A stretch of DNA of 52,957 nt from an uncultured Flavobacteriaceae bacterium (lineage in GTDB: Bacteria > Bacteroidota > Bacteroidia > Flavobacteriales > Flavobacteriaceae). Both the position numbers and the translations under genes were made by a program. Where the stretch lies: the NCBI GenBank assembly GCA_947500385.1, contig CANMSA010000026.1, positions 1 to 52,957 on the forward strand, read 5' to 3'. This document shows, piece after piece, positions 1 through 22,523 of the stretch. Numbering within the stretch: the stretch's first letter is position 1; every line of letters starts with the position of its first letter. The notes beneath the pieces were generated by a model. That model saw nothing but the letters and a program-made list of their open reading frames with translations, made no database searches and had not been told where the DNA came from.

Positions 1-180
1 CGCTGAGCCTGCGTGCAAGGTCACCGGTACGGTACATAAGTCCCCCGGCACCGAAGGGATCCGGAACGAAACGGTCGCAGGTCAGCTCAGGACGGTTCAA
101 ATATCCGCGGCTAAGACCAAAACCCGATATATATAGCTCCCCGGGGACGTTGTAAGGAACAAGACGCCCAACAGCATCTA
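1..180. other. GC-rich patch at left edge, within A domain of module F4
   Basis: GC is about 63%, 57% and 50% in the first three 60-bp rows, then falls to 38% at 181-240. The change falls in the A-domain core, just before the GELYISG segment in protein order. Only 180 bp are visible. Confidence 0.6.
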
Positions 181-8500: not shown

Positions 8501-11500
8501 ATCAAAGGGGGAAGAAGTGATATCTGCAATCAAATCTTCCAAATTTAGATTCTTTTTTCTTATGTCACTATACTCCAATGACCAGCCGTCGGAAGCGACT
8601 ATCTCCTGATAAGGCACGCCGTCCTTGTTTTTGTAAACGGTCCTCAGTATCTCATGACGGTCTACGATACTTCTAAATGTACGTTCCAACAATGAGGGAT
8701 CTATTGCCCCTTTCACTTGTAATACCATAGGTTGGTGGTATTGCAAACTTCCCTGCAGCTGATCAATAAACCATAGGCGTTCCTGTGCGTAGGACAAGGG
8801 TATACTATCCGGCCTGTCGGTTACTTCAATCTTTGGTAAAAGCGCTCCCTTGCGCACTTTGGCCAACACCTTGGCCAACTCCGAAACCGTTGGGTTGGCG
8901 AAAAGGTCCATGATCGACAGTTCAATTTCCATTTCTTTTCGAATGGCTGATATGACCCTTGTGGCCAATAGGGATTGCCCCCCTAATTCAAAAAAATTGT
9001 CATCGGCACCTATCTGTTCTACAGCAAGTATATGCTGCCATATTGAAGCAACTTTTTTTTCTATTTCATTTTCTGGTTTTCGATATGTGGAAATGTTATA
9101 TAGGCTCATATCGGGTTTCGGCAGTGCATCCCTATCTACCTTGCCATTGGCCGTCAGGGGCATCTCATTTATTTGCAGAAACATCGCGGGAACCATATAA
9201 TTGGGTAATTTTTGCTGTAGTACCCGTTTTTCTTCATCCCAACTAAAATTATCATTAACGACCGCGTAAACTACCAAGTAATCCATCCCGTTTTCATCAT
9301 GATGAACGGTCACCCTAGCTTGCTCTATTTGGGAAGATTGTTGTAGTACATGTTCTATTTCCCCCAATTCAATTCTATATCCATTGATCTTTACCTGATC
9401 ATCCTTTCGCCCTACATACGCCAATTCTCCGTTAGGCAACCAATAGGCAATATCGCCCGTTTTATAAATTTTATCGTCTTTTCCATTTGAAAAGGGATGG
9501 TCTACAAATTTTTCCTTCGAAAGTTCTGGCTGGTTTAGGTATCCCATGGCAATCCCCTTACCTCCGATGCAAAGCTCTCCTTTGATGCCTATTGGAGCCA
9601 TATCGCCTTCAGGGGTACATACGTAGGCCTGCATGTTGGGTATGGGTTTTCCTATGTGGATGATCAACTCATCTGCGCCGCTCAATTGATGTACCGTACA
9701 ACCAATGGTAGCTTCCGTGGGCCCATATTCATTGTAAATGATAATATTTGGATTGACCGAACGCATGAATTGCACGTGCATCTCTTCAAGTGCTTCCCCC
9801 CCAACAATTATTCTATTAAGGCGTTTACTTTTCAGATGGTTCAAAAAGTAGGTGTGTGATGGTGTTAGCTTCAGGTGGGTTATTCCATCATTCCCTAGAA
9901 TCGCTTGAATTGTTCCCTGTACGTCCTCTCCCGACTCAACGTAAATGCATCCTCCGGTAAGTAAGGGTAAAAAAACACTTGTTTGTGTCAAGTCGAAAGC
10001 TGGGGAAGTAAATAGAGGAAAACTCATCGCTTGGTCTTTTTCCCTGTATTCCGAGAGCCCAAATGCCGTGTAGTTCACCAAATTTGCTCGACTTATCATA
10101 ACTCCCTTTGGTACTCCTGTAGATCCGGAAGTATAGATAACGTATGCCAGGTTTTCCGTCGGCGAATTGCTGCCAAGTATATCACCGGACAATTGATGGG
10201 CTTTGACCTCCTCAAACTGGAGTTCCGGACAAAATAGCGGAACGTCGTAACTTGAAGCTTGCCACAATTCGTTCGAATCCAGAAGCAATACCTTCAATTT
10301 TGTGTCGGAAATAATAAAAGACTTACGATTATCAGGGTACCGAATATCGATTGGAACGTAAGCCGCCCCCGCATATAAGGTGCCCAGCATTGCAATTATG
10401 GTATAATGGGAATTCTCCATCATAATTCCAACCAGATCGTTTTCATGTAGATGATAGGTCGCCTTTAAGTAACCCGCCAAAGAGGTTGCCCGCTCATGAA
10501 GTGTTTGGTATGTAAGCCCGGTGCCATTGCTTGATACGGCCAGTCGATCCGGGCTTTTAATCGCTTGTTCCCTTAAAAGGTCTGTAATCGAAGGGCTTGC
10601 CGATATTCCAATTTCCTTATTGAAAACATGAAGTATTTTATACTTTTCACTGGGCGTTAGCAGATTCAGTTGATTGATTGGGGTTTTTGGATTTTCTCCA
10701 ATCGACCTTAGCAATAATTCGTAATGTTCAAGCATCTGGTCGATCCTTGATGATTCGAACAGGTCGGAACAATATTCTACCGATATGTATAATTCGTCAT
10801 TAATTTCTTTAATATTGACGGTAAGGTCGTACTGCGCCGTAACGTGATCATATTTACGATAGGAAAGTCTAAGGTCTCCGAAATCAGCCTCCATTGAGGT
10901 TCCCTCGTTATTTTGCATAGAGAAGAGAACTTGAAAGAGTGGCGAATGACTTGTGCTGCGATCTGGAGCGATACGATCTACGATTTTTTCAAAAGGCACT
11001 TCCTGGTATTCATAGGCTTTCAAAGTAGTTTGCTTTACCTGGTTCAGCAAGGCAATAAAGGAGGGGTTTCCTGAAAGATCTGACCGTATGGCCAACATAT
11101 TGACAAAAAAGCCGATTAAACCTTCCACATCCTGCTGTGTTCTGTTCGCTACTGGCGTACCTACACAAATGTCATTTTGTCCGGTATACCTGTGTAACAG
11201 CACCTTGAAAGTACTAAGCAGGGTCATGAAAAGGGTAGCTTCATATTGATGGGACACATCCTTTATTCGTCGTGTGAGTGCGCCATCTAAATGGTAAAAG
11301 GTGATTTTACCGCGTGTACTCTGCACAACAGGTCGGGTATAGTCCGTTGGTAAATTAAGTACCTCAACCCCTTTCAATTTTTCTTCCCAATAACGCAAGC
11401 GTTTTTTCATCAGACTTCTTTGCGCTTTGGACTTTTGCCAAATCGAGTAATCCGCATATTGTATGGGCAATGGCCCTAGAGTTGGACTTTTTTTTTCTCT

Positions 11501-12193
11501 TTCAGCATCGAACAAAGCTATCAGTTCATTTATGAATATTGGAAAAGACCAACCGTCACTTGCGATGTGATGCATGATAACGCCCAGTACATAGGTATTG
11601 GGCGATTTCTTAATGAGATGGCAACGCAGCATATAGTCATTCGCGAGGTCAAATGGCTCCTTCAATAGAGTAACAATAAGCGGATCGATAGCTTCATTGT
11701 TTTCACTCAAATCTGTATAAGACAATGCCCAATTCTTCTTGGCGAGCAATTCCTGATACACCTCCCCATCTTCTTCCCGGTATACCGTTCTCAGAACAGT
11801 ATGGCGATCTACTATTTGTCTGAATATTTTTTCTAATGTTTCTTTTTGAAGATTCCCGTGAATGTCTAATACCATGGGTTGATGGTATTGCGTGCTTCCT
11901 TGTAATCGATCAATGAACCATAGTCTTTCCTGCGCATACGAAAGTGGAATCTTTTTAGCGATCTGGTTTCTATCGCTCTTAGCGTACTTGGAGTTGTTGC
12001 GGTCTTTCAAAAAAGAAGTGATCTCTTCTTTTTTTAACCGCAATAGCCCCATAAACTCTTTATCGACGGTGTTCTTTTTTTGGATCTTTACCCTGAGCAC
12101 ATCATCATCAAGAAACAGATGGATTCCCTGTTCTTTTGCTTGCTTTAAAAGTAGTAGTGGTTCTGTGTTAAGCGTAAGGTCACCCATAGTCAT
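1..12193 (-). CDS. NRPS synthetase F, 3'-partial: (C-A-PCP)x3-C-A...
   Basis: The frame is open from 12193 to the left edge, about 4064 codons with no stop, so the 3' end lies outside. An in-frame TAA just upstream restricts the start to ATG at 12193 or 12187. An AAGG lies 2 nt before the first and 8 nt before the second, so 12187 is a real alternative. A docking region (about residues 1-70) leads into four modules: Asn (DLTKIGEIGK), Gly-like (DIMQLGMIWK), unassigned (DAVQISYIDK) and a Lys-like fourth (DAEHIGEVTK). All C domains are LCL-like with HHIASDGWS. The three complete carriers read GGQSL, GGHSL and GGHSL. No E, methyltransferase or thioesterase is seen before the edge, where the fourth A domain stops just after YRTGDLARR. 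It is separated from synthetase E by 469 bp, unlike the tight spacing of the other genes. The last 170 bp at the left edge turn GC-rich. Confidence 0.93.
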   Translation of the reverse strand, partial: MTMGDLTLNTEPLLLLKQAKEQGIHLFLDDDVLRVKIQKKNTVDKEFMGLLRLKKEEITSFLKDRNNSKYAKSDRNQIAKKIPLSYAQERLWFIDRLQGSTQYHQPMVLDIHGNLQKETLEKIFRQIVDRHTVLRTVYREEDGEVYQELLAKKNWALSYTDLSENNEAIDPLIVTLLKEPFDLANDYMLRCHLIKKSPNTYVLGVIMHHIASDGWSFPIFINELIALFDAEREKKSPTLGPLPIQYADYSIWQKSKAQRSLMKKRLRYWEEKLKGVEVLNLPTDYTRPVVQSTRGKITFYHLDGALTRRIKDVSHQYEATLFMTLLSTFKVLLHRYTGQNDICVGTPVANRTQQDVEGLIGFFVNMLAIRSDLSGNPSFIALLNQVKQTTLKAYEYQEVPFEKIVDRIAPDRSTSHSPLFQVLFSMQNNEGTSMEADFGDLRLSYRKYDHVTAQYDLTVNIKEINDELYISVEYCSDLFESSRIDQMLEHYELLLRSIGENPKTPINQLNLLTPSEKYKILHVFNKEIGISASPSITDLLREQAIKSPDRLAVSSNGTGLTYQTLHERATSLAGYLKATYHLHENDLVGIMMENSHYTIIAMLGTLYAGAAYVPIDIRYPDNRKSFIISDTKLKVLLLDSNELWQASSYDVPLFCPELQFEEVKAHQLSGDILGSNSPTENLAYVIYTSGSTGVPKGVMISRANLVNYTAFGLSEYREKDQAMSFPLFTSPAFDLTQTSVFLPLLTGGCIYVESGEDVQGTIQAILGNDGITHLKLTPSHTYFLNHLKSKRLNRIIVGGEALEEMHVQFMRSVNPNIIIYNEYGPTEATIGCTVHQLSGADELIIHIGKPIPNMQAYVCTPEGDMAPIGIKGELCIGGKGIAMGYLNQPELSKEKFVDHPFSNGKDDKIYKTGDIAYWLPNGELAYVGRKDDQVKINGYRIELGEIEHVLQQSSQIEQARVTVHHDENGMDYLVVYAVVNDNFSWDEEKRVLQQKLPNYMVPAMFLQINEMPLTANGKVDRDALPKPDMSLYNISTYRKPENEIEKKVASIWQHILAVEQIGADDNFFELGGQSLLATRVISAIRKEMEIELSIMDLFANPTVSELAKVLAKVRKGALLPKIEVTDRPDSIPLSYAQERLWFIDQLQGSLQYHQPMVLQVKGAIDPSLLERTFRSIVDRHEILRTVYKNKDGVPYQEIVASDGWSLEYSDIRKKNLNLEDLIADITSSPFDLGIDYMLKCHLIKSNTDAHVLIVMTHHIASDGWSFPIFINELITIYRSLKADRPIGLSDLPVQYADYAIWQRRVIAGTLLEEKLSYWTTRLQGVLPLQLPTDHPRPKIQSVKGNTTSSIIDETTTKALESLSAREEVTLFMTLLSAFKVLLYRYSGQNDICVGTPVANRTSTEIEPLIGAFINTLALRSKLNDNLGFNELLNQVKTTTLQAFDHQDVPFEKVVDGVVNDRDMSRSPLFQVMFILQNNEGVKTFDLGDVDLSLHGQGRITSQYDITVSVTQFKKELHISAEYCSELFDEGTIARLLQHYGRLLQSIVEIPDAAILDLDFLAPGEKKQLEETFNDTESIIPSNGTFLEFFMGHANQKPDSPVLHFHDKSHSYRELDQKSNQLARYLTANGIGNEDIVGLCVNRSFDMLIGLLGILKSGSAYIPIDPTYPKDRIAYMCDDASLEVIVTHESYKELFATDHHLILLDKESNKISKESVEKPDTLPGFNALAYVIYTSGSTGKPKGVMIEHKALLNFLASMGQRLNFTSSNTLLAVTTYSFDIAYMELYLPLLTGGSIIMADRATAVDGHQLKKLIRKTTPNFMQATPSTWQMLLDSDWTNVEDMVVLCGGEAISETLKERLTSLGDRSVWNMYGPTETTIWSTMASLQSSRKTTIGAPIGNTQVYILDKNGRPAPIGIPGELCIGGIGLSKGYLNRPVLTKEKFVANAVGKEGGRLYRTGDLARWLATGELEFLGRMDDQIKIRGHRIEPGEIERALLAYTTVRECVVVKKLDYYGGGQLVGYIIAGEDFSKEEARNYLLAELPSYMIPAALVKLKKFPLTPNGKIDKKALPSPEYEYKVDADFVPPTKEVDEKMAVIWRSLLRVEKIGIHDNFFELGGHSLLATRVLSSIRNTFNAELTILEFFKSPTVHGLSNIIENRSGSVYLPSLIAMERPERVPLSYAQERLWFIDRLRGGAQFHLPITLRVKGNIDFDSLESAFKAILRRHEVLRTVYREDDKGAFQLVLDAGPWTLGRQNIQDKNETAVREQITKLVTRPFDLENDYMMRCHVLEQKKQEWLLVIITHHIASDGWSFPIFVKELVEYYQAQVEQRASELPSLPLQYADYAIWQRAYLTDEVLDKKLSYWETKLKGVKPLGLPTDNVYKGQKKKNKARFVNRVLNPHFSEQIRHLANKHDATLFMTLMTAFKIVLSRYSGQNDICVGIPVANRQQIETEPLVGFFVNTLALRTEIPRDTNFVSLLAQVRHTALEAFDHQEVPFEKVVEKVASGRDMDRSPLFQVMFVLQNNEKVSGFHLNEVKLSVFDYGEAIAQHDLIFHVHETNNGLSFSLEYATDLFNTATAEILLGNYETLLHSILENPEESIATLNLVVDGERKEILERSNERFRVADERKTIIDQFAVVTGQNPHGIALTFDKREITYLELDKKSNQIAMFLRKKGVQKQDLVGICMERSAFLIMGMLGILKAGAAYVPIDPKYPTDRVGFILKDAHLNTVVSVQNCVGLFDRKEHEKLVLLDSDWNAIVDELDYETGSFPCENDMAYVIYTSGSTGLPKGVMIRHDSLFNLLRAESDILELDHKVRGCMLANYVFDASIVEIFLPLLCGGTLSIPDEKEVLDPERLLEWMSIKGINILQGTPSFIANLFDNASKAQIENLVLDKICSGGGSLSTALVNRINKLFPGVQLNNYYGATEATIDSMVLKNIRSFDRNKIGSPIDNSQVFILDENLGLVPTNVVGEICIGGDGLAVGYMNKPELTQEKFVTSPFNDKLRLYRTGDLGRWLSDGTIEYLGRSDNQVKVRGYRIELGEIEYTIQQFQQVLETAVLAKEYDDGENHLIAYVTAEDLFDKKILIRYLEAKLPYYMVPAMIILMEQMPLTINGKIDKASLPVPSSVSQLNPTAYVEARDELEIKLVALWKRLLKVEKVGVNDNFFELGGHSLLATRLISGIRSAVAIELSIADLFANPTVAELAQLIQISEEGTTLPAIEAKQRPVRVPLSFGQERIWFIDKLQGSLQYHQPTVLRIEGELDKASLIGAFQEIVNRHEILRTIYLEHEGIPYQKVLAKNTWSLDFTDTFKQDTAIDENQLVRKTLQKPFRLEQDHMLRCHLIRKSVNDHILVIVTHHIASDGWSLSIFINELTKLYMAVSNKAMQDLSPLTLQYSDYALWQRSEEQEYLLETKMAYWENQLNGVQPIDLVIDYPRPGVQSNKGALVGRALGKPLRDRIVTFAQEQEATLFMILVAAFKVLVYRYSGQEDICIGTPVANRTRTETEPLIGFFVNTLALRSRIKGDSNFKTVLKEIKKTTLDAYDHQEVPFEKIVDKVGVERDMGRSPLFQMMLVLQNNEEADAIDMEGIRLSPFGYEQTTAQFDMTINISENSNGIGIAVEYCTDLYRSATIGRMLVHYENLIANLVENPLIDLHSISLMDQAEKEELLTLDRRKVVPFENKTITQLFEQQVRLTPEHVALVYEKEVLTYRALNQKANQLARCLIQKGFGPEALIGLCLERSLNRIIGILGILKAGATYLPIDPEYPKDWIAFMLYDAAVPLVVSSVNAKHNLPQDGDVEMLLLEKGEEHFATLDKENPSTGAMQPDYSAYVIYTSGSTGRPKGVFTSHSAVVNLISSQTRTFQITEEERILQFSNYTFDASVEQIFLALLNGSTLVMMPEYVLNDTSLLGEYIMAEDITHLHATPSYLKLLKPSKYKLKRIIAGGEVCPPSLANAWSPFVTFYNEYGPTETTVTSLEYCVEKVITRGGNVSIGNPIDNTKAYILDAVGRLVPYNVPGELYISGFGLSRGYLNRPELTCDRFVPDPFGAGGLMYRTGDLARRLS
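2580..5690 (-). other. Module F3: LCL C, A (unassigned), PCP
   Basis: The C domain has HHIASDGWS near 5280. The pocket residues (FDASIVE, LQGTPS, ICSGGGSL, NYYGATEATID) give DAVQISYIDK, which I cannot match confidently to a known code. Note GATE in place of GPTE and SGGG in place of GGE. The carrier reads LGGHSLLATRL. Confidence 0.7.
5740..8820 (-). other. Module F2: LCL C, A (Gly-like), PCP
   Basis: The C domain has HHIASDGWS near 8410. The pocket residues come from FDIAYMELY, MQATPST, VLCGGEAI and NMYGPTETTIW and give DIMQLGMIWK, very close to the Gly code DILQLGLIWK. The carrier reads LGGHSLLATRV. Confidence 0.72.
8870..11960 (-). other. Module F1: LCL C, A (Asn-like), PCP
   Basis: The C domain has HHIASDGWS near 11560. 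The A domain (FDLTQTS, KLTPSH, IIVGGEAL, NEYGPTEATIG) gives DLTKIGEIGK. The carrier reads LGGQSLLATRV near 8975. It would receive the chain from synthetase E. Confidence 0.75.
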
Positions 12194-12662
12194 AGCCTTA
12201 TAACATTAGTAAAGAAATGTAACCAACAATCACCCCTACTTTCTATAAGTGCTTACCCTTAAAATGTAACAAGGAATTGGTCCAAGCATTTGTAATGCGA
12301 TTTCCCCAACCTAAAAAATTGAAAGCAGTTCGATCATCTTAAACGATTTGCCCAATCCTATCGGTTTACGGTACGATCCATTGCCCAGGATTCCAAATGG
12401 CAGGGGAAAAATTAAAAAAGCAAACAAACAGTAGGAAAATAGTATTGGCCTATCCTGTTCCAAACATCCTCAAGGCCTACTTTTTATCCCTTAGGCTAAA
12501 TGGACTATAAGGAATCATCTCATTTAATAGCGCAGCATCCAGAACCGTCGACCAAAGTTTAATGCACAATCATCCGTTATGTTTGTTTCGGATATAAGTG
12601 TCAAATACATCTTTACTCCACTACCGTACTATTGATTCCCTTGTTCATTTAAGCAGGAAAAT
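12194..12662. other. 469-bp non-coding gap between synthetases E and F
   Basis: No plausible protein-coding frame lies in this gap, while all other gene junctions here are 21 bp or less. On the minus strand a TTTG (12461-12464) and a TATTTTCC (12434-12441) are 19 nt apart. This resembles the Bacteroidota promoter pattern TTTG-N19-21-TAnnTTTG, but the second box is imperfect. An 8-bp imperfect inverted repeat (12486-12493 with 12508-12515) is followed by A, not T, residues on the transcribed strand, so it is not a convincing terminator. The gap may hold an internal promoter for synthetase F. Confidence 0.5.
12434..12464 (-). promoter_or_regulatory. Possible Bacteroidota-type promoter for synthetase F
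   Basis: The TTTG at 12461-12464 and TATTTTCC at 12434-12441 have the right 19-nt spacing, but the -7 box matches only 6 of 8 consensus positions. It would leave a leader of about 240 nt before the ATG at 12193. This rests on pattern alone. Confidence 0.25.
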
Positions 12663-15600
12663 CTATAAGTCCATAATAAGGAACTCTTGTTCATCGTCCA
12701 TTTCAATTGAAGCAGTCATGATGGCGATGTATTTGGCAAGGCTATGTATCGTAGGGTTGTCCATAAAATGCTTTACCGGAACATTTAAATGAAATTCTTT
12801 TTCAATAACTCTGATGTATTCGAGCACTTGAACCGAAGTTCCTAATTGAAAAAAATGATCATGGATACCAATTTCCTGCGCTTGGACTATATTCCGCCAA
12901 AACTGTAGCAGTTTTGTTTCCAACGGATTGTCCGGACAATGGCTTTCCAAGATAACTTGGGTCTTATTTCCTATAAATGAATTCCTTTCAAGACTAACTG
13001 TCTTATTTGTACTATTTATTTTCATGATTTGGGACAAATCTTGTACGGCGGTATCAGGTGCCCGAAGCATCTCCTCCATACAAGACTTAAACTGACCTAA
13101 TAACCGCTCTAAATCTTTTTCTGCAAACAGGCTATTTAAGGCCTTAAACGCTATTTCCAACTCCGATTTATCCAGGTCAGTTACCTCCAAAGCAAAACCA
13201 GATATCCGATTTTTGTCATCAATTGGATAATCCTGAATACTTGTATCCTTATGATGTACTGTTTGAAACAACCGGCCATCCTGCCATTCGAAACAAATTT
13301 CCGACATCGGGCCATTTCCTTTCGGATTGTCCTTTCCTATCGCTTCGATCGTTTTTATATGAGGAGGAGCCATCATCCCATTGGTTTTCACAATTTCTCT
13401 AGTGGTACCGATGATTTCATAAAATGTATTTGCCAAATCTATGGTATTGGGAACCAAAAAGGTATCGCCGTACGGCCCGATGGCTCCTCGCAGATCTGTG
13501 TGCGCCGTTTCTTTTTTTATTCGAAGATATACAGGGCTAAAAATAAGGCTAAGAAATACACGGTACATAGACAAAATGATTGTTGGCAGGGGTGTATTTG
13601 TCTTACGTCCCAATTCCACAAGTTGTCCATAAACTGACTTCCCGATAGTACTTTTTGAACACACGGTTGTCGTATGCTCATCGCCGTATGGTATTCCAAG
13701 TGCAATATCCGATAAATCCGAAGCGGGGACATTTACAGCAAGCTCACTTTTTATATTCCCGATTTCTGTCGCCAATCTGTCATTAGACCAATACTCTCGC
13801 TCCCATAGAACAAAATCGGCATGTTGTACCGTAGGCGGCTCACCATACACATAATCCGGATCCGCTGTAAGCTTCATATACGTCGAAATTACTTCCTTTA
13901 AAAACAACCTTACCGCGAACTTATCAAACGCAATGCTGTGAAAAACCAATACAAAAATATGCCGCGTATCGTTTAACGAAAGTAATTTACTTCTAACGGG
14001 AACATCACATTGTAAATCAAAAGGTTCATTTATCTCTTCATTTATGGCTGCTTCAAGTAACGTATCGGAACTTCCTTTCTTCAGTCCATGAACCTTAAAA
14101 ACCAATTTGTTGGAAGAGAAAAGCACTTGACAAGGCATGCCATTTTGAGTAGTATATACCGTTCGTAAAATTTCATGCCTGCCCAATACCGTTTCGAACG
14201 ATTTTTTTAAGTGGTCGGGATTTAGAGTACCTTCAAAATTTAAGGCGGCAGGAATGTGCTGATGTTGACTTCCCATCCATTGATGCATAAACCAGACCTT
14301 TTCCTGATAAAATGACAAGGGTATCTTGGCCGGGCGTATCCTTGAAACAATAGGTGGATATTTTCTTGTGGTCAGTAATTTCGATATCAATACGGATAAC
14401 GTTTCCACCGTGGTGTACTCAAACAGTTGTTTGAGTTCTACACTTATCTGAAGCTCCTTTTGGATAGCGGAAGCCAAACGGGTCGCCAGTAAGGAGTGGC
14501 CTCCTAAAAGGAAAAAATCATCGTGTATTCCAATATCTTGAACATGCAGTAAATGCTCCCATATCTTGATAATGACACGCTCTATCCCATTTCTTGGTGC
14601 CACGTAGGCCTCGCGGACCTTATGATGTTTTGTATGATGGGCCTTTGTACGATCAAACAGTGCCGTAAGCGTTGGGTAGTGGGTCACCATATTCTCCAAC
14701 ACACTTTCTTGTAACCGATATCTTAACCATAGTTCGGATGCCGTGGAAGGTGTTTTTGCCTTTTTTTCAACAGCCCTTGCGTTTTCTTTTGAATATGCCA
14801 AACTCTCTTCCAACAACAATGGGATATCAACTAAAGGGACCGGCCTGTTTCCCTCTGGACCAATACTTCCCAAAGTTTCCAAAAATCGTCTCGCCGGAGC
14901 ATTTCGATTGGTTGGGTGAAAAGCAAAAAGGAGGTTTTGCGCACCGGCTTCCTCTGCAAAACGGGTCAAATGTTCCAACAGTCTATATTCAATATTTCTT
15001 CCCAAAACCCTGCAACTCATTAAGAAATGGTCTACCAAGACACGCTGTTTTTCCTTTTTATAAATGAGGACCGCAACGGTACCATAATCTCCAAACTTAT
15101 CCGAGACCGAAACCACCTCAACCCTATGATCCGGTTGAGCGGCATAGGATTCCAAGGCATCCGTTGAATAAGGTACCTTGTTGGTATTGAATTGATTGGT
15201 CCGTTTTGTTAGCTGGGAGGCTCTCTCGACCGAATGAGTGGAAAGGGCATTAACTTTGATATTGATGTCGAGATTTGCCAGAAAAGAGGCATAGTTGTCA
15301 CTACTGGATTCTTCCGACTTGCGTAACCTTTCCTCTTGGTACATTTGGGTTCTACGATGATCTTCCGCTGTAACCCCACCTTTTTTAAAGCACCAAACAG
15401 TATCGATAAAACTACCTACCAGTGCTGCGCTTGCGGGTAGCTGTAAGGTAAATACCTCTGGGCAATGCTCTCGTACCTCCCTACATTCCAAGGCGCTGTC
15501 ATCGATAAACACAAAGCTTTCCAAACCCAAATTCAGGGAATCGGCCAAGGCCATTATATTTTTGGATTTGGGTTCCCAGTTGATTTCCCAACCCACGAAA

Positions 15601-18600
15601 TCTTGTAAAGAAAGTAAATCTGAAGAGGCAATACCGCGTTGCTTTTTGATTTCATCGAGCCTCGAAAATAAGTCCAGTACTTCCTCTTCGTTGTTTTTGC
15701 TAGACATGGCCAATAAAATGCCTTCTGATTTTAATCGTTTTAACGACCGATGGAAATTGACCCTGTGGTCATCAAAATGAATTCCTTCCATGCCATCTTC
15801 ACCCAAGATACCCTGCCAAAGTGTATTATCGCAGTCAAGGACAATTACTTTTGGCAACCTGTTCAAGGAATGTTGAAAATATGTCCTGCCCACCAATACT
15901 CCCAACCCTCCATACATTTCTTCGGTATATGGTATGTGACCAAGCTTGTCCTGAACATGATCATATTTCTCCAACAAACCACCTATTGGCCCATAATCTT
16001 CGGCAAAAGTAACCTCACTATCCATTAGCTCGCTTATCCTATGGGCAAAATCGGTATTTACTTCCGCTAGGAACGTTTTCATGGCTAAGGCATCCTCAAC
16101 TTCTTCATTGGCGACAGGGCATATGATGAAGTGGATTTTCCCATTTAGCCTATTTCGATTTGATTGTACTCCTTTTAAAAGGTCATCGCGAAACTGATGT
16201 ACTTTTTCCTGCTTTGAAGCAATTGTGGTCTTTGCGCCATCTTCCTCATAACGATAACTGTCCCTCCATCTAAGGAATATATAATTGACCTGATCGGGAT
16301 AAGCATACAGCGCACTTCGGGGATTATTCAATTCCTGTAATACTTGGTTGTATTCCCCATAACTTATCAATGGACGGTCTGGCATCGGCCCCATCAATTC
16401 TGTCAGATAAGGTCGGATGGGATCTATTGTAAATGTGGCATTTAAACGAATACGGTCCCTGCCGGCCAATAGTGAGAGGTCTGATATGCGTTTTTTTCTT
16501 TCCAATACCAACTCTTTCAATACAGAATGAAAATCGGTCTTGATCATTTCGATATACCGTGCCGAGAGCGATTCTTGATTATAGGTAAATTGAATGTTGA
16601 GCCGATCGGCCATCAAAAAATCAATATTGAGCGGATACTCACTGGGCACCCTTCTTGTACCGCTCATCTGTAAATTGGTCTGGCCCCTACCAATTGTCTC
16701 TCCCTTAGGTGCGTTTTGAAAAATCAAAACACTTTCGAACAAATCGCCTTGAAACCCCAATAATTGCCTTAATTTGCCAACACTGGTATATTGATATTCG
16801 CGGGCAAGTACATGTTCTTGCTGTAACGATACCAACCACGATAAAATATTATGGCCCGGAACTATAGCGGTGTGCAAAGGAATCATGTTGATGTAGAGCC
16901 CGACACGTTTTTCAATATTTTCCAAACCAGCTGGCCGTCCGGACACCGTTACACCAAAGGTAACGGTAGCACTGTTTTTGTACTTATACAGTAAAAGTGC
17001 CCAAATTCCCTGCATGAGCGTATTCACCGTAATGCTACCGGACCTTGCATAGGAAGTAATTTCCTTTGTGAATTCCTCGTCGATAGACAAATGGGTATGT
17101 TGATAATCTCCATCTCCACGACTTGTTTTTTGTCCATAATCCAAAAAAGGGATGTTGGCCCGTTGATCGATATCTTTTAGGTAAGCCTTCCAGAAGGACC
17201 ACTCTTTGTACTTATCTCCTTGATCCAAGAAGTGAATAAAATCTGTGTAATGATCTGTTTCAGAGGTTATTTTCATCTGACCAGATTCAAAAGACCGATA
17301 GTGCTCCAAGAATTCATCGATCAATAAGCCCATTGACCACCCATCTAACAAAATATGATGACTGGTCAGTACCAATTTATATGCGCTTTCGTTCACCTTT
17401 ACAAGTAAAATACGGAGTAGTGGGGGCTTGCTTAATTCAAAACCTTTTTCTTTCTCGGACCGGACCAAAGCCCTTATTTCCTGTTTCAGTTCCGCGGTTA
17501 AAAAGTGAGAAAAATCTATTTTTTGAACAAGGGGCACAATAGACTTGTAAACAGCCTGTACCGGAATACTAAAGCGATCATGAAAAAAACAAGTTCTCAA
17601 AATACTATGGTGCTCAAACAAACGACGCCAGCAATATTCCACTGCGTCTAAATTGATATCCAGCGGAAAATCGACCACCATTTGCTCTACATAGATCGTA
17701 CCGCCATATAGGCTTTGAAAGAGCATTCCTTCCTGCAGGGGGCTAAGTTTGCTCAAATGGGATATTTCATCCTTATTCGCCCCATTGGCATAAAAATGAT
17801 CTAGTTCTTGAAAAGTAACCTCTTGTTCTAAACCAAAATCCGATGGGGTAGGGAATTCTCCGTCACTGGATACACAATGTTGCGCAAGCTTCTGTAGATT
17901 TTTCTTGTACAGACTTGCCAAACTTCTAATGGATTTGGAATAGTACTGGTCGGAATCATACTCAATGGTAAGTTGCAAACAGTCATTCTTGCGAAGTAAA
18001 TTCAACACTATTTTCTCTTCCGGAACCTTTAGTCCTTTTTTCGCATCAAAAGAACTTACTGCACTCCTTGCTACCCGTTCTGTTTCATGTTCCCTATAAT
18101 TGTAAACAATATCATAGTTCCCGACTGTTAATTCGTTTCTGACTTCTTCCGATGGATGCGAAATGCGTAGGGCTTGATGACCGATTCCTTTGTACGGCAC
18201 CCTACTCAACTGCTCTTTGATCCTTTTGATTGTTTGCGCAATTGGCTCCGAAGGATCTATTGACACCAAAACCGGATAAACGAAAGAAAAACATCCGACC
18301 GTGTTGTTAAATTTCAGCTCTTCATCAATCTGTCTTACCTTGTCCATTTTTACTCCGAACAGCAGCTGCACTTCCCCGAACCATTCCCCAAGTGCCATGG
18401 CCATTGCGCTAAGTAGCAAATCTTCGGTTCGCGTATGATACATCAAGTTAAGGTTTTGAGTAAACGCATCCGAGAACGAATCCATAAGGGAGATGGAGTG
18501 ACATTTACTAGCGTTGATTTTATTTGCCCTCTTTTTTTCCCTAGGAATGCCATGCTCTGCCTGAACGATAGAACGCCAATAATCGATTTGAGAAGTTACT

Positions 18601-21600
18601 ATATCCCTTTCTGCATAAGTGGACAGGGCATCATACCAGTCATGGAAGGCATAGGTCTTTGAAGGTAGCCGTATGTTTTTTCCCTTTGATAAAGAAAATA
18701 TGATATCTTCTAGATCTTTTTTAACAATGACCAATGAGATGTTATCTACAATGGCACTATGGATAAGAACAAAAAGTTCATTGTGGTCCTCATCCCCTTC
18801 CTCTTCCAGCAAAACAAATCCGACCAATTGATCCTCATTTGCCAAATTAGTTGTATGCAATCGAAGAATTTCTTTTGCGGTAGTCGTAGCCCGCGCATAT
18901 TGTTCGACTACGACACCTTTTACTTCTTTCCCATAAAACTGAACCAAGTCACCATCCTCATAGGTGAATTCCATCCTCAAGGTATCATGGTGCCGACATA
19001 ATACCCCAACCGATTCATCAATTATATCCCTTCGTATTGACTTCACCGTTTTCAATGAAACCACATGGTACTCTGCAACTCCTTTATTCGCAACCGATGC
19101 CATTGCTCGTTTCTGGATGGGCAATAAGGGAAAGTTCCCTTTTTTTATTTTCTGTTTTGCCATTTTCCGGTACCGCTCCTCTACTATCCGATCACTTAGT
19201 TCTTTAATGGTTTGGTATCTGAAAAGGTCTTTTGGATGTATTGGGTAGCCAAGTTTCTTTACACGGCTTACTACCTGGATAGCGGTAATGGAATCTCCGC
19301 CCAACTCAAAAAAATTATCATTTATACCGATATCTTGCAAATTTAAAAGCTCTTCGTATATCAAGGTCATTTCCTTTTCAAAGGATGTGGATGGTGCTTC
19401 ATAAACTTTTTTTTGTGATTCGTAATTCCCGAGAAGCATTAAGGCCTTTTTATTTACCTTACCATTTTCCGTAAGGGGGATTTGAGGTAATTCACAAACA
19501 AAGTCGGGAATGGCATATACAGGCAGTTTCTTTTTTAAGAAAGCTTTCATGTCGTTCTTATCCAGAGGTTTTTCTGTTTCAAGATAAGCGGCCAAAACCT
19601 TTATACCCTTCTCTCTTTCCATAACAACAACCGAAGAATTCCGTACATTCGGGTGTTTGCCCAAAGCGTATTCAATCTCACCCAATTCAATCCTGTGGCC
19701 TCTTAATTTTATTTGATCATCCCTTCTGCCCAGATACTCTATATTGCCATCGGGAAGCCAGCGTGCCAAATCGCCGGTACCATAGTATCTCTTGCGATCA
19801 TGCCCTGCTGACAGGAGATATTTGAATTTATCTGCCGTCATCACCGGTTGGTTCAAGTAGCCTCTAGCCAAGCCCATCCCAGCGATATGCAATTCCCCGA
19901 CCATCCCGATTGGGATTTCTTTGTCGTGCGCGTCCAAAATTGATAATTGGGCATTCCAAATGGGCCTTCCAATGGGTATGGCAATGCCCTCTTCTTGCTC
20001 CAGTTCAAATACGCAACATCCAATAGTAGCTTCAGTGGGGCCATATTCATTGAATATCCTCATTTCGGGATTTACAGCATACAAACGTTCTATATGATTT
20101 GATTTGAGTGCCTCCCCTCCAACTATGGCCGCAGTCAATCGTATGCTTTGTACTCCGTCCAGAAGCCGCGTATGTGAGGGCGTTAGTTTAATATGTGTTA
20201 CAAGCCCTGCGGAAATAGTGGCATGAAGGGCATCCATTAAATTCTCTTCGCCGGAAACATGTATCGTTCCTCCGGTTAGCAAGGGGAGCAAAACAGAGGT
20301 CTGGGTCAAATCGAATGCGATGGAAGTGAACAATGGAAAGTGCATGGCTTCCCCATTTACCTGGTATGTATTCAGACAATATTGCACATAATTTAACAAG
20401 GCTTCATGTTCTATCATAACACCCTTGGGCGAACCGGTTGAACCAGAAGTATAGATAACGTATGCCAACTGATCTGCTTTCAAGGTCGGAAATTCGACTT
20501 TTGGGATGGGAAATTCAGATTCCACTTCCTTCAAACGATTCTGGACATCGATAAACTCGATATTACTGCCAAATCCATCATCCATAAAATTCGGATCCGT
20601 CAGTACAATCCTAAGCCTTGCATCTTTGATCATGTAATTCACCCGGTCCTTTGGATACCTAATATCAATTGGTAAATAGGCTAGTCCCAATTTCATTATT
20701 GAGAGTAAGGAAACAATGGTCCATCGTGAGTTCTTCATCATTAGACCGATCAACTCTTCCTCTTTTAACATGTAGTTACTAGTAAGATAAAGAGAAAGGG
20801 CATTGACCTTACCAAAGAGTTCTTCGTAGCTCATTTCCCCATACTCATCGTAAACAGCAGCTAAATTGGATTGCCATTGCAATTGTCGATCGATATAAGG
20901 GATAATGCTTTGCGATTCTAGTTTTTTGTTTACGCAATCGCTTAAGTTCCGGACAAGGTCCGCTTCTTTTTGGTTCAAAAGATCAAGGCGGTCGATTCTT
21001 TGGGAGGGTTCATTGGCTATAGATTGCAATAAAATGCCGTAGTGACGAAGTAGCCTTTTGATAGTTGAGGGGGTATACAAATCACTGCAATACTCAACAG
21101 AAACATGGATACCGCGAGAAACCTGGGAAACATTGAAAGTTAGATCGTACAAGGTAGTTGTATGTCTTACGGGATAGGTCTTTATGCTGATCTTGTCCAG
21201 GGAAATATTCGTTGTTTTCTCATTGTTTTGAAAGGAAAACAGGATTTGGAACAAGGGGCTTCTACCGAGGTCTCTATTTTGCCCCATCTTATTGACCACT
21301 TTTTCAAAAGGAACGTCTTGGTGCTTATGCGCATCCAGCACAGTTTTTCTCACTTGTTGCAAGGTGGTCAAGAATGAGGCGGCGTTGTCGAGTTCGTCCC
21401 TCAGTGCCAACGAATTGACAAAAAAACCTATCAAATGCTCCAATTCAGGGAGCGTCCGATTGGCCACCGATGTTCCTACACATATATCTTCCTCCCCCGT
21501 ATACCTAAACAAGAGTATCTTAAAGGCCGCGAGCAAAGTCATATAGAGCGTTACCCCTTCTTGTTTTGAAATAGTTGTTAATTTATCCAATAGCTGTACG

Positions 21601-22523
21601 GGATAAGTACTACCTTCCATGGTGCCACGTGTGCTTTGTATAGGAGGGCGTGGAAAATCACCGCTTAATTCAAAGGGCTCGACCGCCTTTAACTTATTCT
21701 CCCAATACCGCATTTTATCGGCCAATACTTCCTTGTCCAGGTTTCCCCGTAACCAAACGGCGTAATCTGCATATTGTATCGGAAGTAAAGGAAGGGTAGA
21801 AGGGACTCCCGAGGTTTCTGCCTTATATTGTTCTACTAGTTCCTTGACCAATATTGGGAAAGACCAACCGTCGCTTGCGATATGATGTATTACAATTGTG
21901 AGTATATAGTTACTATTCCCAAATCGAACCAATTCGGCACGCATCATATAGTCACTTGCGAGATCAAACGGTTCCCGTACGATTTTTGCAATATATGCCT
22001 CCTCTGGCCGCCCCTTTTCCCGCGTTTTTAGACTTGTTACTTTTAGATTCCAATTTTCTACCGACTGCACTTTTTGATACGGTTTCCCCGAATTTTCGTG
22101 GTAGATCGTACGCAGAACGGTATGACGGGTTAATAGCATCTTAAAAGAAGCTTCGAGTGCTCTTTCGTCTAAAAATCCGGTTAACTGTAATACAATGGGT
22201 TGGTGATACTGTGTACTCCCTCCCAATTGGTCTATAAACCAGAGTCGCTCTTGGGAATACGATAAAGGAATCGTATCAGGTTTAGGATAATTGGCTAAAA
22301 ACGCTGAAATACTTTTTTTATCAATTCCCTTTTCAAAATGGGTTTGAAAATACTCCTTTAAAGCGATTTTATTAGCCTTTATTTTGTCGATTATACCCTG
22401 CTCTACCCTTTTTCCCTTTGGAATATTCAGGGCCAGTTGATTTTTATCAAAAGCTATCTTTACGCCTTTGCGATTGGCCTCTTTAATCAAGGCCATCATT
22501 GCTGTCATTGTGTCTTCCAACAT
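12663..22523 (-). CDS. NRPS synthetase E: C-A-PCP-E*-C-FkbH-PCP-C*-PCP*
   Basis: 3286 residues with an unusual layout. An N-terminal docking region is followed by an LCL C domain (HHIASDGWS near 216), an A domain with Asn-like code DLTKIGEIGK (YTSGSTGSPKG near 694), a PCP with GGDSI (near 1074) and an epimerization fold whose motif reads HSAIVDN instead of HHxxxDG (near 1256). A DCL-like C domain follows (LSPLQEGMLFQSL; HHILLDGWS near 1724). In place of an A domain there is an FkbH-like region (residues about 2028-2600; VLDCDNTLWQGILGEDG near 2231), the family that loads glyceryl from 1,3-bisphosphoglycerate onto a carrier protein. A normal PCP follows (GGHSLLATRL near 2676). The protein ends with a C-like domain with HSIAFDK near 2864 and a carrier reading FFQLGTSV near 3229, with no A domain between them. 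The tail MDDEQEFLIMDL fits a docking motif for synthetase F. The gap from synthetase D is 21 bp. Confidence 0.95.
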   Translation of the reverse strand: MLEDTMTAMMALIKEANRKGVKIAFDKNQLALNIPKGKRVEQGIIDKIKANKIALKEYFQTHFEKGIDKKSISAFLANYPKPDTIPLSYSQERLWFIDQLGGSTQYHQPIVLQLTGFLDERALEASFKMLLTRHTVLRTIYHENSGKPYQKVQSVENWNLKVTSLKTREKGRPEEAYIAKIVREPFDLASDYMMRAELVRFGNSNYILTIVIHHIASDGWSFPILVKELVEQYKAETSGVPSTLPLLPIQYADYAVWLRGNLDKEVLADKMRYWENKLKAVEPFELSGDFPRPPIQSTRGTMEGSTYPVQLLDKLTTISKQEGVTLYMTLLAAFKILLFRYTGEEDICVGTSVANRTLPELEHLIGFFVNSLALRDELDNAASFLTTLQQVRKTVLDAHKHQDVPFEKVVNKMGQNRDLGRSPLFQILFSFQNNEKTTNISLDKISIKTYPVRHTTTLYDLTFNVSQVSRGIHVSVEYCSDLYTPSTIKRLLRHYGILLQSIANEPSQRIDRLDLLNQKEADLVRNLSDCVNKKLESQSIIPYIDRQLQWQSNLAAVYDEYGEMSYEELFGKVNALSLYLTSNYMLKEEELIGLMMKNSRWTIVSLLSIMKLGLAYLPIDIRYPKDRVNYMIKDARLRIVLTDPNFMDDGFGSNIEFIDVQNRLKEVESEFPIPKVEFPTLKADQLAYVIYTSGSTGSPKGVMIEHEALLNYVQYCLNTYQVNGEAMHFPLFTSIAFDLTQTSVLLPLLTGGTIHVSGEENLMDALHATISAGLVTHIKLTPSHTRLLDGVQSIRLTAAIVGGEALKSNHIERLYAVNPEMRIFNEYGPTEATIGCCVFELEQEEGIAIPIGRPIWNAQLSILDAHDKEIPIGMVGELHIAGMGLARGYLNQPVMTADKFKYLLSAGHDRKRYYGTGDLARWLPDGNIEYLGRRDDQIKLRGHRIELGEIEYALGKHPNVRNSSVVVMEREKGIKVLAAYLETEKPLDKNDMKAFLKKKLPVYAIPDFVCELPQIPLTENGKVNKKALMLLGNYESQKKVYEAPSTSFEKEMTLIYEELLNLQDIGINDNFFELGGDSITAIQVVSRVKKLGYPIHPKDLFRYQTIKELSDRIVEERYRKMAKQKIKKGNFPLLPIQKRAMASVANKGVAEYHVVSLKTVKSIRRDIIDESVGVLCRHHDTLRMEFTYEDGDLVQFYGKEVKGVVVEQYARATTTAKEILRLHTTNLANEDQLVGFVLLEEEGDEDHNELFVLIHSAIVDNISLVIVKKDLEDIIFSLSKGKNIRLPSKTYAFHDWYDALSTYAERDIVTSQIDYWRSIVQAEHGIPREKKRANKINASKCHSISLMDSFSDAFTQNLNLMYHTRTEDLLLSAMAMALGEWFGEVQLLFGVKMDKVRQIDEELKFNNTVGCFSFVYPVLVSIDPSEPIAQTIKRIKEQLSRVPYKGIGHQALRISHPSEEVRNELTVGNYDIVYNYREHETERVARSAVSSFDAKKGLKVPEEKIVLNLLRKNDCLQLTIEYDSDQYYSKSIRSLASLYKKNLQKLAQHCVSSDGEFPTPSDFGLEQEVTFQELDHFYANGANKDEISHLSKLSPLQEGMLFQSLYGGTIYVEQMVVDFPLDINLDAVEYCWRRLFEHHSILRTCFFHDRFSIPVQAVYKSIVPLVQKIDFSHFLTAELKQEIRALVRSEKEKGFELSKPPLLRILLVKVNESAYKLVLTSHHILLDGWSMGLLIDEFLEHYRSFESGQMKITSETDHYTDFIHFLDQGDKYKEWSFWKAYLKDIDQRANIPFLDYGQKTSRGDGDYQHTHLSIDEEFTKEITSYARSGSITVNTLMQGIWALLLYKYKNSATVTFGVTVSGRPAGLENIEKRVGLYINMIPLHTAIVPGHNILSWLVSLQQEHVLAREYQYTSVGKLRQLLGFQGDLFESVLIFQNAPKGETIGRGQTNLQMSGTRRVPSEYPLNIDFLMADRLNIQFTYNQESLSARYIEMIKTDFHSVLKELVLERKKRISDLSLLAGRDRIRLNATFTIDPIRPYLTELMGPMPDRPLISYGEYNQVLQELNNPRSALYAYPDQVNYIFLRWRDSYRYEEDGAKTTIASKQEKVHQFRDDLLKGVQSNRNRLNGKIHFIICPVANEEVEDALAMKTFLAEVNTDFAHRISELMDSEVTFAEDYGPIGGLLEKYDHVQDKLGHIPYTEEMYGGLGVLVGRTYFQHSLNRLPKVIVLDCDNTLWQGILGEDGMEGIHFDDHRVNFHRSLKRLKSEGILLAMSSKNNEEEVLDLFSRLDEIKKQRGIASSDLLSLQDFVGWEINWEPKSKNIMALADSLNLGLESFVFIDDSALECREVREHCPEVFTLQLPASAALVGSFIDTVWCFKKGGVTAEDHRRTQMYQEERLRKSEESSSDNYASFLANLDINIKVNALSTHSVERASQLTKRTNQFNTNKVPYSTDALESYAAQPDHRVEVVSVSDKFGDYGTVAVLIYKKEKQRVLVDHFLMSCRVLGRNIEYRLLEHLTRFAEEAGAQNLLFAFHPTNRNAPARRFLETLGSIGPEGNRPVPLVDIPLLLEESLAYSKENARAVEKKAKTPSTASELWLRYRLQESVLENMVTHYPTLTALFDRTKAHHTKHHKVREAYVAPRNGIERVIIKIWEHLLHVQDIGIHDDFFLLGGHSLLATRLASAIQKELQISVELKQLFEYTTVETLSVLISKLLTTRKYPPIVSRIRPAKIPLSFYQEKVWFMHQWMGSQHQHIPAALNFEGTLNPDHLKKSFETVLGRHEILRTVYTTQNGMPCQVLFSSNKLVFKVHGLKKGSSDTLLEAAINEEINEPFDLQCDVPVRSKLLSLNDTRHIFVLVFHSIAFDKFAVRLFLKEVISTYMKLTADPDYVYGEPPTVQHADFVLWEREYWSNDRLATEIGNIKSELAVNVPASDLSDIALGIPYGDEHTTTVCSKSTIGKSVYGQLVELGRKTNTPLPTIILSMYRVFLSLIFSPVYLRIKKETAHTDLRGAIGPYGDTFLVPNTIDLANTFYEIIGTTREIVKTNGMMAPPHIKTIEAIGKDNPKGNGPMSEICFEWQDGRLFQTVHHKDTSIQDYPIDDKNRISGFALEVTDLDKSELEIAFKALNSLFAEKDLERLLGQFKSCMEEMLRAPDTAVQDLSQIMKINSTNKTVSLERNSFIGNKTQVILESHCPDNPLETKLLQFWRNIVQAQEIGIHDHFFQLGTSVQVLEYIRVIEKEFHLNVPVKHFMDNPTIHSLAKYIAIMTASIEMDDEQEFLIMDL
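12680..14340 (-). other. Remnant module E3: degenerate C* and atypical PCP*, no A domain
   Basis: The C-like domain begins IPLSFYQEKVWFM, but its active-site motif is HSIAFDK (second His to Ser, Gly to Lys) near 13930. C motifs further on are also weakened. It runs straight into a carrier-like fold (EIGIHDHFFQLGTSVQVLEY), where the usual LGGHS/LGGDS is shortened to LGTS. The Ser may still accept phosphopantetheine, but the motif has lost one residue. This could be an inactive leftover of a full module or a protein-recruiting platform like the X domain of glycopeptide synthetases. Confidence 0.75.
14390..17760 (-). other. Module E2: C-FkbH-PCP, glyceryl (glycerate) incorporating module
   Basis: The C domain is DCL-like (LSPLQEGMLFQSL) with an intact HHILLDGWS. 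No A-domain motifs occur before the next carrier; the FkbH-like region takes their place. The carrier (DDFFLLGGHSLLATRL) is normal. Expected chemistry: glycerate is loaded from 1,3-bisphosphoglycerate and the C domain joins the peptide to one of its hydroxyls, giving an ester. Confidence 0.75.
14720..16470 (-). other. FkbH-like glyceryl transferase/phosphatase region
   Basis: The N-terminal part (NATFTIDPIRPYL, then YNQVLQELNNPRSALY) is typical of long FkbH proteins. The HAD-like core has VLDCDNTLWQGILGEDG near 15830, MSSKNNEEEV, and FVFIDDSALECREVRE near 15500, which are the HAD motifs of the family. The C-terminal part (RTNQFNTNKVPYS, DKFGDYGTVAVLIY, RVLGRNIEYRLLEHL) is the usual GNAT-like tail. 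Family members dephosphorylate a phosphoglyceryl unit and load glyceryl onto a carrier thiol. I see no frameshift or lost motif, so it is probably active. Confidence 0.88.
17850..19160 (-). other. Degenerate epimerization domain, predicted inactive
   Basis: The domain aligns along its length with the intact E domain of synthetase B (shared TVGxF, DxLLSA and PSDFGLxxE segments), but the catalytic positions are gone. HHLVIDG is HSAIVDN (second His to Ser, Gly to Asn) near 18755. EGHGREEID is KMDKVRQID (Glu to Lys) near 18355. FNYLGQ is YNYREH. An active domain needs the second His and the Glu, so no epimerization is expected. It might persist as a structural spacer or interaction surface. Confidence 0.85.
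19190..22290 (-). other. Module E1: LCL C, A (Asn-like), PCP (GGDSI)
   Basis: The C domain has HHIASDGWS. The A domain (FDLTQTS, KLTPSH, IVGGEAL, NEYGPTEATIG) gives DLTKIGEIGK. The carrier (GGDSITAIQVVSRVKKLG) closely resembles the synthetase B carrier, which precedes an active E domain. This suggests the PCP-E unit was inherited as a block. Confidence 0.78.

Follow-up and report, generated by a model that had tools for sequence, protein, structure and literature searches.

A probable glycerate module, C-FkbH-T, among degenerate domains in a nonribosomal peptide synthetase line of an uncultured Flavobacteriaceae bacterium

Organization of the locus

The window analysed here is a 52,957-nt stretch of contig CANMSA010000026.1 (assembly GCA_947500385.1), nearly the whole of which is covered by six large frames, genes A to F, of a nonribosomal peptide synthetase (NRPS) line (Table 1). 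TubC_N matches are found at the starts of genes B to F, two of the five lying below the cut-off of 26 bits (that of gene F, at 25.3 bits, only slightly), and gene F opens with an intact C domain. The gap between genes E and F measures 469 bases, as against 4, 11 and 21 bases for the other gaps, and genes A and B overlap. The piece at 48507-52957 is GC-rich. The genome holds three matches to TauD (PF02668), none of them on this contig; for aspartyl hydroxylase (PF05118), no match was found in the genome or in the control genomes.

Gene E encodes the domain order docking-C-A-T-E'-C-FkbH-T-C'-T', in which the prime marks the three of nine domains that are degenerate. At an E value of 0.001, all the domain families that Pfam identifies in the protein are C, A or T; neither a reductase nor a dehydratase is thus seen. 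The only AMP-binding stretch (amino acids 547-890) belongs to the upstream module; its specificity residues, two of which were moved by eye relative to the regex output, are presumably Asn/Asp-like according to known specificity codes. The GGDSI-type carrier that follows resembles, among the carriers compared, those directly preceding E domains. The next module has no A domain, and FkbH stands between C and T instead, as had been claimed in a preliminary description of this DNA, which also placed the module correctly at 14390-17760.

Table 1. Features of gene E and its neighbours in the window
Feature	Position	Strand	Basis
Gene F, next protein, C-A-T-C-A-T-C-A-T-C-A, runs off contig	2..12193	-	frame list, domain profiles
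Gene E, 3286 aa	12663..22523	-	single open frame; domains via Pfam, NCBIfam and own profiles
T', altered carrier, one residue absent before Ser (LGT-S)	12726..12938	-	PF00550 34.8 bits, alignment
C', condensation domain, second His of HHxxxDG lost (FHSIAFDKF)	13026..14327	-	profile, tree, motif
T, carrier of glycerate module, LGGHSL	about 14382..14609	-	profile and motif alignment
FkbH region: N-terminal part, HAD core with DCDNTLW, GNAT-like part	14856..16403	-	TIGR01686, alignment A2, model
C domain of glycerate module, C3 motif SHHILLDGWS intact	about 16455..17750	-	profile, phylogeny, motif
E', epimerization domain with HSAIVDNISL and KMDKVR	17835..19136	-	tree, motifs, TIGR01720
T before E', GGDSI type	19185..19406	-	motif
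A domain of gene E	19686..20840	-	specificity residues DLTK-I-G-E-I-G
First C domain of gene E, intact HHIASDG	20961..22277	-	profile and motif alignment
TubC_N-like N-terminal docking domain (weak)	22350..22490	-	PF18563 E 0.004, 17.7 bits; cut-off 26
Gene D, preceding protein, C-A-T-C-A(FkbM-like insert)-T	22545..30050	-	domain profiles; insert by eye

The FkbH region

The FkbH region of gene E belongs to the FkbH family, as family score, conserved columns and predicted fold agree. Within the gene E protein, the region matches TIGR01686 with 278.6 bits (E 6.1e-83), well above the curated cut-off of 146.65, and the core at 14868-15854 scores 284.6 bits (E 1.7e-84); this is the sole match in the 6.03-Mb genome and is well beyond chance. 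The 14 control genomes and nine other genomes of the genus contain no match, and Pfam FkbH_N hits gene E below its own cut-off (E 0.18). Both motifs named in the preliminary description, DCDNTLW and IDDSALE, are present, and the family search supports its assignment. In alignment A2, which holds the gene E region and 46 others chosen from 75 listed, 25 columns are invariant across the 46 other rows, and gene E retains 24 of them, together with 50 of the 58 nearly invariant ones; the exception among the former is position 445, at which an otherwise invariant Gly is replaced by Ala. The HAD residues are D191, C192, D193, K237 (the lysine of SKN), D302 and D303 in A2 numbering. The Cys of DCD is the glyceryl carrier residue of FkbH; its column contains Cys in 42 of the 47 rows and Ala in five. 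The model of the region has a pLDDT of 88.3, and its best Foldseek match is a solved relative, BF1531 (3slr; E 1.3e-16, TM 0.48 by query and 0.69 by target), while the C-terminal part matches GNAT folds.

The C domain and carrier of the glycerate module

The domains on either side of FkbH retain their motifs (HHxxxDG in C and GGHS in T), in line with the active-looking C domain and normal carrier described previously. Taken alone, the C domain scores 231.9 bits against PF00668. In a FastTree phylogeny of C and E domains at least 360 aa long, it groups with the post-E (DCL-like) clade. No special ester-forming C clade appears in this tree: the 25 C domains preceding FkbH need 14 changes, of which at least nine are forced by starred branches, in a tree that contains long branches.

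Degenerate domains around the module

The preliminary description was silent on the domains that frame the module. Upstream, E' falls inside the E clade on a branch of 1.98 and matches the E-type profile TIGR01720 with 65.9 bits, below the cut-off of 74.2. HHxxxDG has become HSAIVDN and EGHGR has become KMDKVR, so that the motifs of an active epimerization domain are absent; the sharing of EGHGR among the E rows compared is partly circular because most were labelled E through this motif. Downstream, a degenerate C-T unit (12726-14327) directly follows the module; the C domain found there, C', lacks the catalytic His and lies on a branch of 2.33. Aligned with their best matches, E' and C' carry other residues at over 70% of the positions, and no stop codon has arisen. 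The model of C'-T' has a mean pLDDT of 70.4, higher in the C' core, and does not resolve T', as its alignment used 19 rows without other carriers.

That E' might be an interface or X-domain was considered; its placement in the E clade and its TIGR01720 match argue otherwise, in a comparison made up of sequences other than interface or X-domains. Nor is there support for explaining the dead E' by an achiral residue upstream, since the upstream A domain reads as Asn/Asp-like (two positions by eye).

FkbH modules in other genomes

The genome search for C-FkbH-PCP modules proposed earlier recovered a C domain directly before FkbH in 22 of the best 80 loci, and C-FkbH-T modules occur in several phyla on C domains of several lineages. 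In 54 of the 91 FkbH stretches surveyed, FkbH comes first in its frame and is followed by T. The domain survey dropped loci L001-L043 as well as L131, which was regarded as a duplicate of L046, and replaced L054 with L147-L149; the FkbH tree holds pieces of at least 420 aa, including Legionella L105 and L115, which are absent from A2 (L115 is also in the C/E tree). A C domain between two carriers was seen three times among the C stretches surveyed (gene E, Saprospiraceae and genome G219); nearly all lines surveyed had been picked for FkbH, so a link between FkbH and such A-less C-T units has no fair control. In the myxobacterial phylum, that of Polyangium genome G820, 44 of 282 genomes have FkbH matches, and none of six FkbH loci picked there for long frames contains C-FkbH-T; cystomanamide-like or vioprolide-like sequences were not among them.

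The closest relative found is the Saprospiraceae FkbH (L054, L147-L149), which is 40% identical in its best segment and is sister to that of gene E with a support of 96. Its line, known from sequence alone, has the similar order C-A-T-E-C-FkbH-T-C-A-T; unlike in gene E, the E motifs are intact, no dead C-T unit follows, and there is a second C-FkbH-T.

Comparison with known systems

The preliminary description knew of no characterized NRPS with this arrangement; such a precedent exists. The cystomanamide line of Cystobacter fuscus is tabulated as (C-A-PCP-E)3-(C-fkbH-PCP)4-(C-A-PCP-E-TE)5 in the consulted part of PMC9581180, with glyceric acid in the peptide; its module 4 thus likewise lies mid-line, directly behind C-A-PCP-E. 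Compared by domain order, the two differ in that C-A-PCP-E-TE comes next in cystomanamide, whereas gene E continues with C' and T' and has a preceding E domain that looks dead. Module 2 of vioprolide is also C-FkbH-PCP, in which an ester-forming C domain joins glycerate, according to the consulted sections of a review (PMC8949500); with this the earlier ester prediction agrees. In contrast to gene E, the vioprolide unit is acylated by a fatty acid in the second module and is not mid-peptide. Module 2 of corramycin (FAAL-ACP-C-HAD-T) is similar as well, but it lies near the start of its line, and C-methylation of its glycerate unit by a separate enzyme has been proposed (consulted part of PMC10099666). 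Cyanobacterial starters, such as AerB of suomilide and varlaxin, share FkbH-T within an NRPS, with glycerate reported for suomilide and varlaxin in the source portions consulted and the start FkbH-T-C-A in Planktothrix L126 known by domain build only; unlike gene E, they stand at the start of the line with no preceding C domain. The gene E module is a new member of a kind already known from several other bacteria, set in an unexplained frame of silent-looking domains, E', C' and T'.

Proposed mechanism and alternatives

Gene E probably encodes a working glycerate module within a long NRPS line. FkbH would take glycerate from D-1,3-bisphosphoglycerate and strip the phosphates, and the LGGHSL carrier would end up bearing glyceryl (+88.016 Da). 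At the intact C domain, the glyceryl hydroxyl would accept the peptide from the Asn/Asp-type upstream module, which would place an ester in the backbone. As E' looks dead, the upstream residue is expected to remain in the L form despite the post-E ancestry of the C domain. C' and T' would be bypassed and the chain passed to the first C domain of gene F. The FkbH family score, conserved columns and predicted fold, the lack of a second A domain, the intact C and T motifs, the same E-C-FkbH-T-C-A-T order in the Saprospiraceae relative and the glycerate modules of vioprolide and cystomanamide favour this mechanism; the dead-looking epimerase before a post-E-clade C domain, the Gly-to-Ala change in A2 and the long E-F gap count against it.

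With three of nine domains degenerate, the protein may be partly decayed, and one alternative is that decay is under way, having struck E', C' and T' first, and that the glycerate module is dead or the line makes nothing. Three such domains in a single protein, the long branches of two of them and the lack of an FkbH match in the nine other genomes of the genus searched would fit; however, the 9.9-kb frame stays open amid frames that nearly fill the contig, E' and C' have diverged so far with no stop, even though C' and T' lie at the protein end, where a stop costs least, and the C and FkbH motifs are kept. Decay to this extent is considered unlikely. Less likely again is that FkbH loads another unit, such as lactyl or unprocessed phosphoglyceryl, or that glyceryl is altered later in trans. 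FkbH systems of polyketide lines do supply several C3 units, and the methylation proposed for corramycin would be a case of later change, but the C-FkbH-PCP relatives covered in the consulted part of the review load glyceryl (PMC8949500) and Pfam finds no reductase or dehydratase in gene E at E 0.001. The frequency of FkbH-T at frame starts, together with the near-start positions in vioprolide and corramycin (consulted parts of PMC8949500 and PMC10099666), might suggest that the module starts a new chain, gene E lying between two separate products; this is highly improbable, as a C domain with intact motifs, itself behind C-A-T, precedes FkbH in the same protein and the TubC_N series from B to F fits one line.

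As to why a working module should be framed in this way, a purposeful arrangement of retained silent domains, E' leaving the residue L ahead of a post-E-type C domain and C'-T' serving as a bypass and docking piece by which an ester-linked chain skips an empty module and reaches the next protein, is a speculative and rather doubtful reading. If real, this would be a novel design for accommodating an ester-forming module, one absent from the consulted passages on C-FkbH-PCP lines.

Implications

The line is predicted to make a Bacteroidota depsipeptide with glycerate within its backbone. Since C-FkbH-T modules occur in several phyla and on several C lineages, replacing an A domain with FkbH may be a general means of introducing ester bonds into peptides. 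Moreover, a dead E domain before a post-E-type C domain allows a direct test of which donors such C domains select.

A probable glycerate module in gene E

Gene E encodes a protein with the domain order C-A-T-E*-C-FkbH-T-C*-T*, in which E* is a degenerate epimerization domain, C* a condensation domain without the catalytic His, and T* an altered carrier. The preliminary description had noticed an FkbH region instead of an A domain, and this observation is correct: profile TIGR01686 matches amino acids 2224-2552 at 278.6 bits (cut-off, 146.65), which places the region inside the FkbH family, and FkbH occupies the A place because Pfam finds only one A domain in the protein, at amino acids 547-890. 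This is the sole TIGR01686 match found across the window's genome; Pfam FkbH_N remains below its cut-off (E 0.18). Of the 25 columns that never vary across 46 other chosen FkbH regions in an alignment, the window region retains 24, and of the 58 nearly invariant ones, 50. The Cys position of the DCDNTLW motif holds Cys in 42 of all 47 rows and Ala in five. The solved structure that best fits an AlphaFold2 model of the region (pLDDT 88.3, pTM 0.80) is that of the phosphatase-domain part of BF1531, 3slr (E 1.3e-16; TM 0.48 by query and 0.69 by target), and GNAT folds appear among the next matches; a sequence search of the PDB at E 0.01 returned 3slr alone. Reading C-FkbH-T of gene E as a glycerate module is very likely right.

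The module belongs to an already known kind, and the earlier supposition that it lacked precedent was mistaken. According to PMC8949500, FkbH replaces A and loads glyceryl in NRPS modules, with cystomanamide and vioprolide as named cases, and the vioprolide C domain forms an ester bond; the vioprolide case is repeated in a passage of PMC12397197. The cystomanamide line is given in part of PMC9581180 as (C-A-PCP-E)3-(C-fkbH-PCP)4-(C-A-PCP-E-TE)5, with the peptide Asn-Asn-Phe-GA-Tyr. For corramycin and vioprolide, PMC10099666 lists FAAL-ACP-C-HAD-T; it also states that D-3-phosphoglycerate activation was shown for the vioprolide FkbH. Suomilide and varlaxin have FkbH starters, as described in a section of PMC10143770. 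Among the titles listed by literature searches that covered a minority of subscription journals, none was on this gene cluster.

Gene line and contig

The window genome comprises 6.03 Mb in 123 contigs, of which contig 26 (1-52957) is the window. Its phylum is probably Bacteroidota: the match in G200, a genome from the same-phylum set, agrees in contig number, place, and score with that in the genome behind L131, a Balneolia MAG. The window's minus strand carries six large frames, transcribed in the order A to F, and NRPS domains are present in all six. A TubC_N docking domain lies at the start of B, C, and D above the Pfam cut-off, just below it in F (25.3 bits; cut-off, 26), and weakly in E (17.7 bits, E 0.004). 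A scan of the E-F gap detected nothing terminator-like and, on the minus strand, a single promoter-like site, which falls barely within gene E, at its end, and does not exceed what shuffles yield.

Features of the window
Feature	Position	Strand	Remark
Gene A	45926-52957	minus	start cut off
Gene D	22545-30050	minus	
Gene E	12663-22523	minus	
Gene F	2-12193	minus	end cut off
E-F gap	12194-12662		469 bases
C domain behind GGDS-type carrier	25254-26612		
C domain behind GGDS-type carrier	36355-37659		
83-base repeat, first copy	48507-48589		98.8% between copies
83-base repeat, second copy	52875-52957		contig right end

By eye, the translations show an FkbM-like methyltransferase insert in the second A domain of gene D and N-methyltransferase-like inserts in A domains of genes A and C. 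The contig edges are NRPS repeats: contig C42 begins with a match to window 1-185 (98.9%), and contig C38 with one to window 48986-49147 (93.8%). Beside the 83-base repeat, GC rises from 0.376 (48001-48500) to 0.578 (48501-49000); a misjoin or recent acquisition could account for the piece 48507-52957.

Distribution of FkbH modules

Genomes near the window's seldom contain an FkbH match. The nine other searched genomes of its genus have none, and with the window's own genome counted in each set, they were found in 5 of 99 relatives, 13 of 397 family genomes, and 33 of 395 phylum genomes; in two other matching genomes of these sets, G219 (locus L044) and G513 (L045), FkbH lies in an NRPS frame behind C. 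In a wider scan of genome contigs, at least 501 relatives were confirmed and the best 80 analysed; 22 of the 80 have FkbH immediately preceded by C within one frame. Five of the 22 (L054, L066, L077, L090, and L124) also show a clear amino-acid module upstream in frame, and another, L114, has weak A matches. The Saprospiraceae line containing L054 shares E-C-FkbH-T with the window, but its E motifs are intact and it has two C-FkbH-T modules. At L147-L149 in this line, an A-less C-T unit with an intact C domain (HHSIIDG) lies between the two glycerate modules.

In a quick FkbH tree of 88 rows, some with long branches, the window groups with both modules of that line (96, starred). The tree holds 23 further C-FkbH rows: 14 make up a clade (97, starred), eight are interspersed with other FkbH rows, and L044 is separate. 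The L044 C-FkbH-T module reads DADNTLW, with Ala where Cys is usual, and DAD also replaces DCD at L084, L087, L089, and L097. The NRPS frame of L044 seems, by eye, to end in E plus a thioesterase region.

The condensation domain and its silent neighbours

In the FkbH module, the C domain carries an intact SHHILLDGWS motif. Its clade (100, starred) consists of 10 rows, each from the window genome, and seven of them come immediately after an E domain within one frame; the dead-looking E* therefore precedes a C domain of post-E (DCL) type. The 25 C domains that precede FkbH do not form one clade: 14 changes are needed, compared with a shuffled mean of 23.8, and at least nine are forced by starred branches. 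PMC10212144 states that, except in the heterocyclization subtype, the C3 motif is almost always HHxxxD, SHxxxD being found in an atypical fungal kind. The two C domains behind GGDS-type carriers fall in a distinct starred clade of nine rows, which also holds Saprospiraceae and Paenibacillus/Cohnella C domains.

The neighbours E*, C*, and T* were absent from the preliminary description. At the positions of the intact E motifs HHLVIDGVSW and EGHGRE, E* reads HSAIVDNISL and KMDKVR, respectively. It falls inside the E clade on an end branch of 1.98, scores 65.9 bits against TIGR01720 (below the cut-off of 74.2), and shares 29% identity with its best match, compared with 43% for the gene B E domain. 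C*, with the motif FHSIAFDKF, reaches 26% identity to its best match, compared with 43-55% for 10 of the 12 ordinary full-length window C domains in the same table, and its end branch measures 2.33 inside a starred group made up of 19 rows, C domains from this genome. In T*, one residue is missing ahead of the serine. The C*-T* model has a mean pLDDT of 70.4, with the C* core better and T* not resolved. The frame stays open through both domains despite this heavy change, which suggests that they are retained for structure or docking. No close relative that would allow a selection test was found.

Proposed course of synthesis

By analogy with its relatives, for which this has been reported, FkbH would transfer glyceryl from 1,3-bisphosphoglycerate to the carrier, and the C domain of the module would form an ester, with vioprolide as the precedent. 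The donor residue, presumably Asn/Asp-like by the A-domain specificity codes, would probably stay L because E* looks dead. The chain would then bypass C*-T* and pass on to gene F. The silent frame around the glycerate module is the part that specialists might still want explained.
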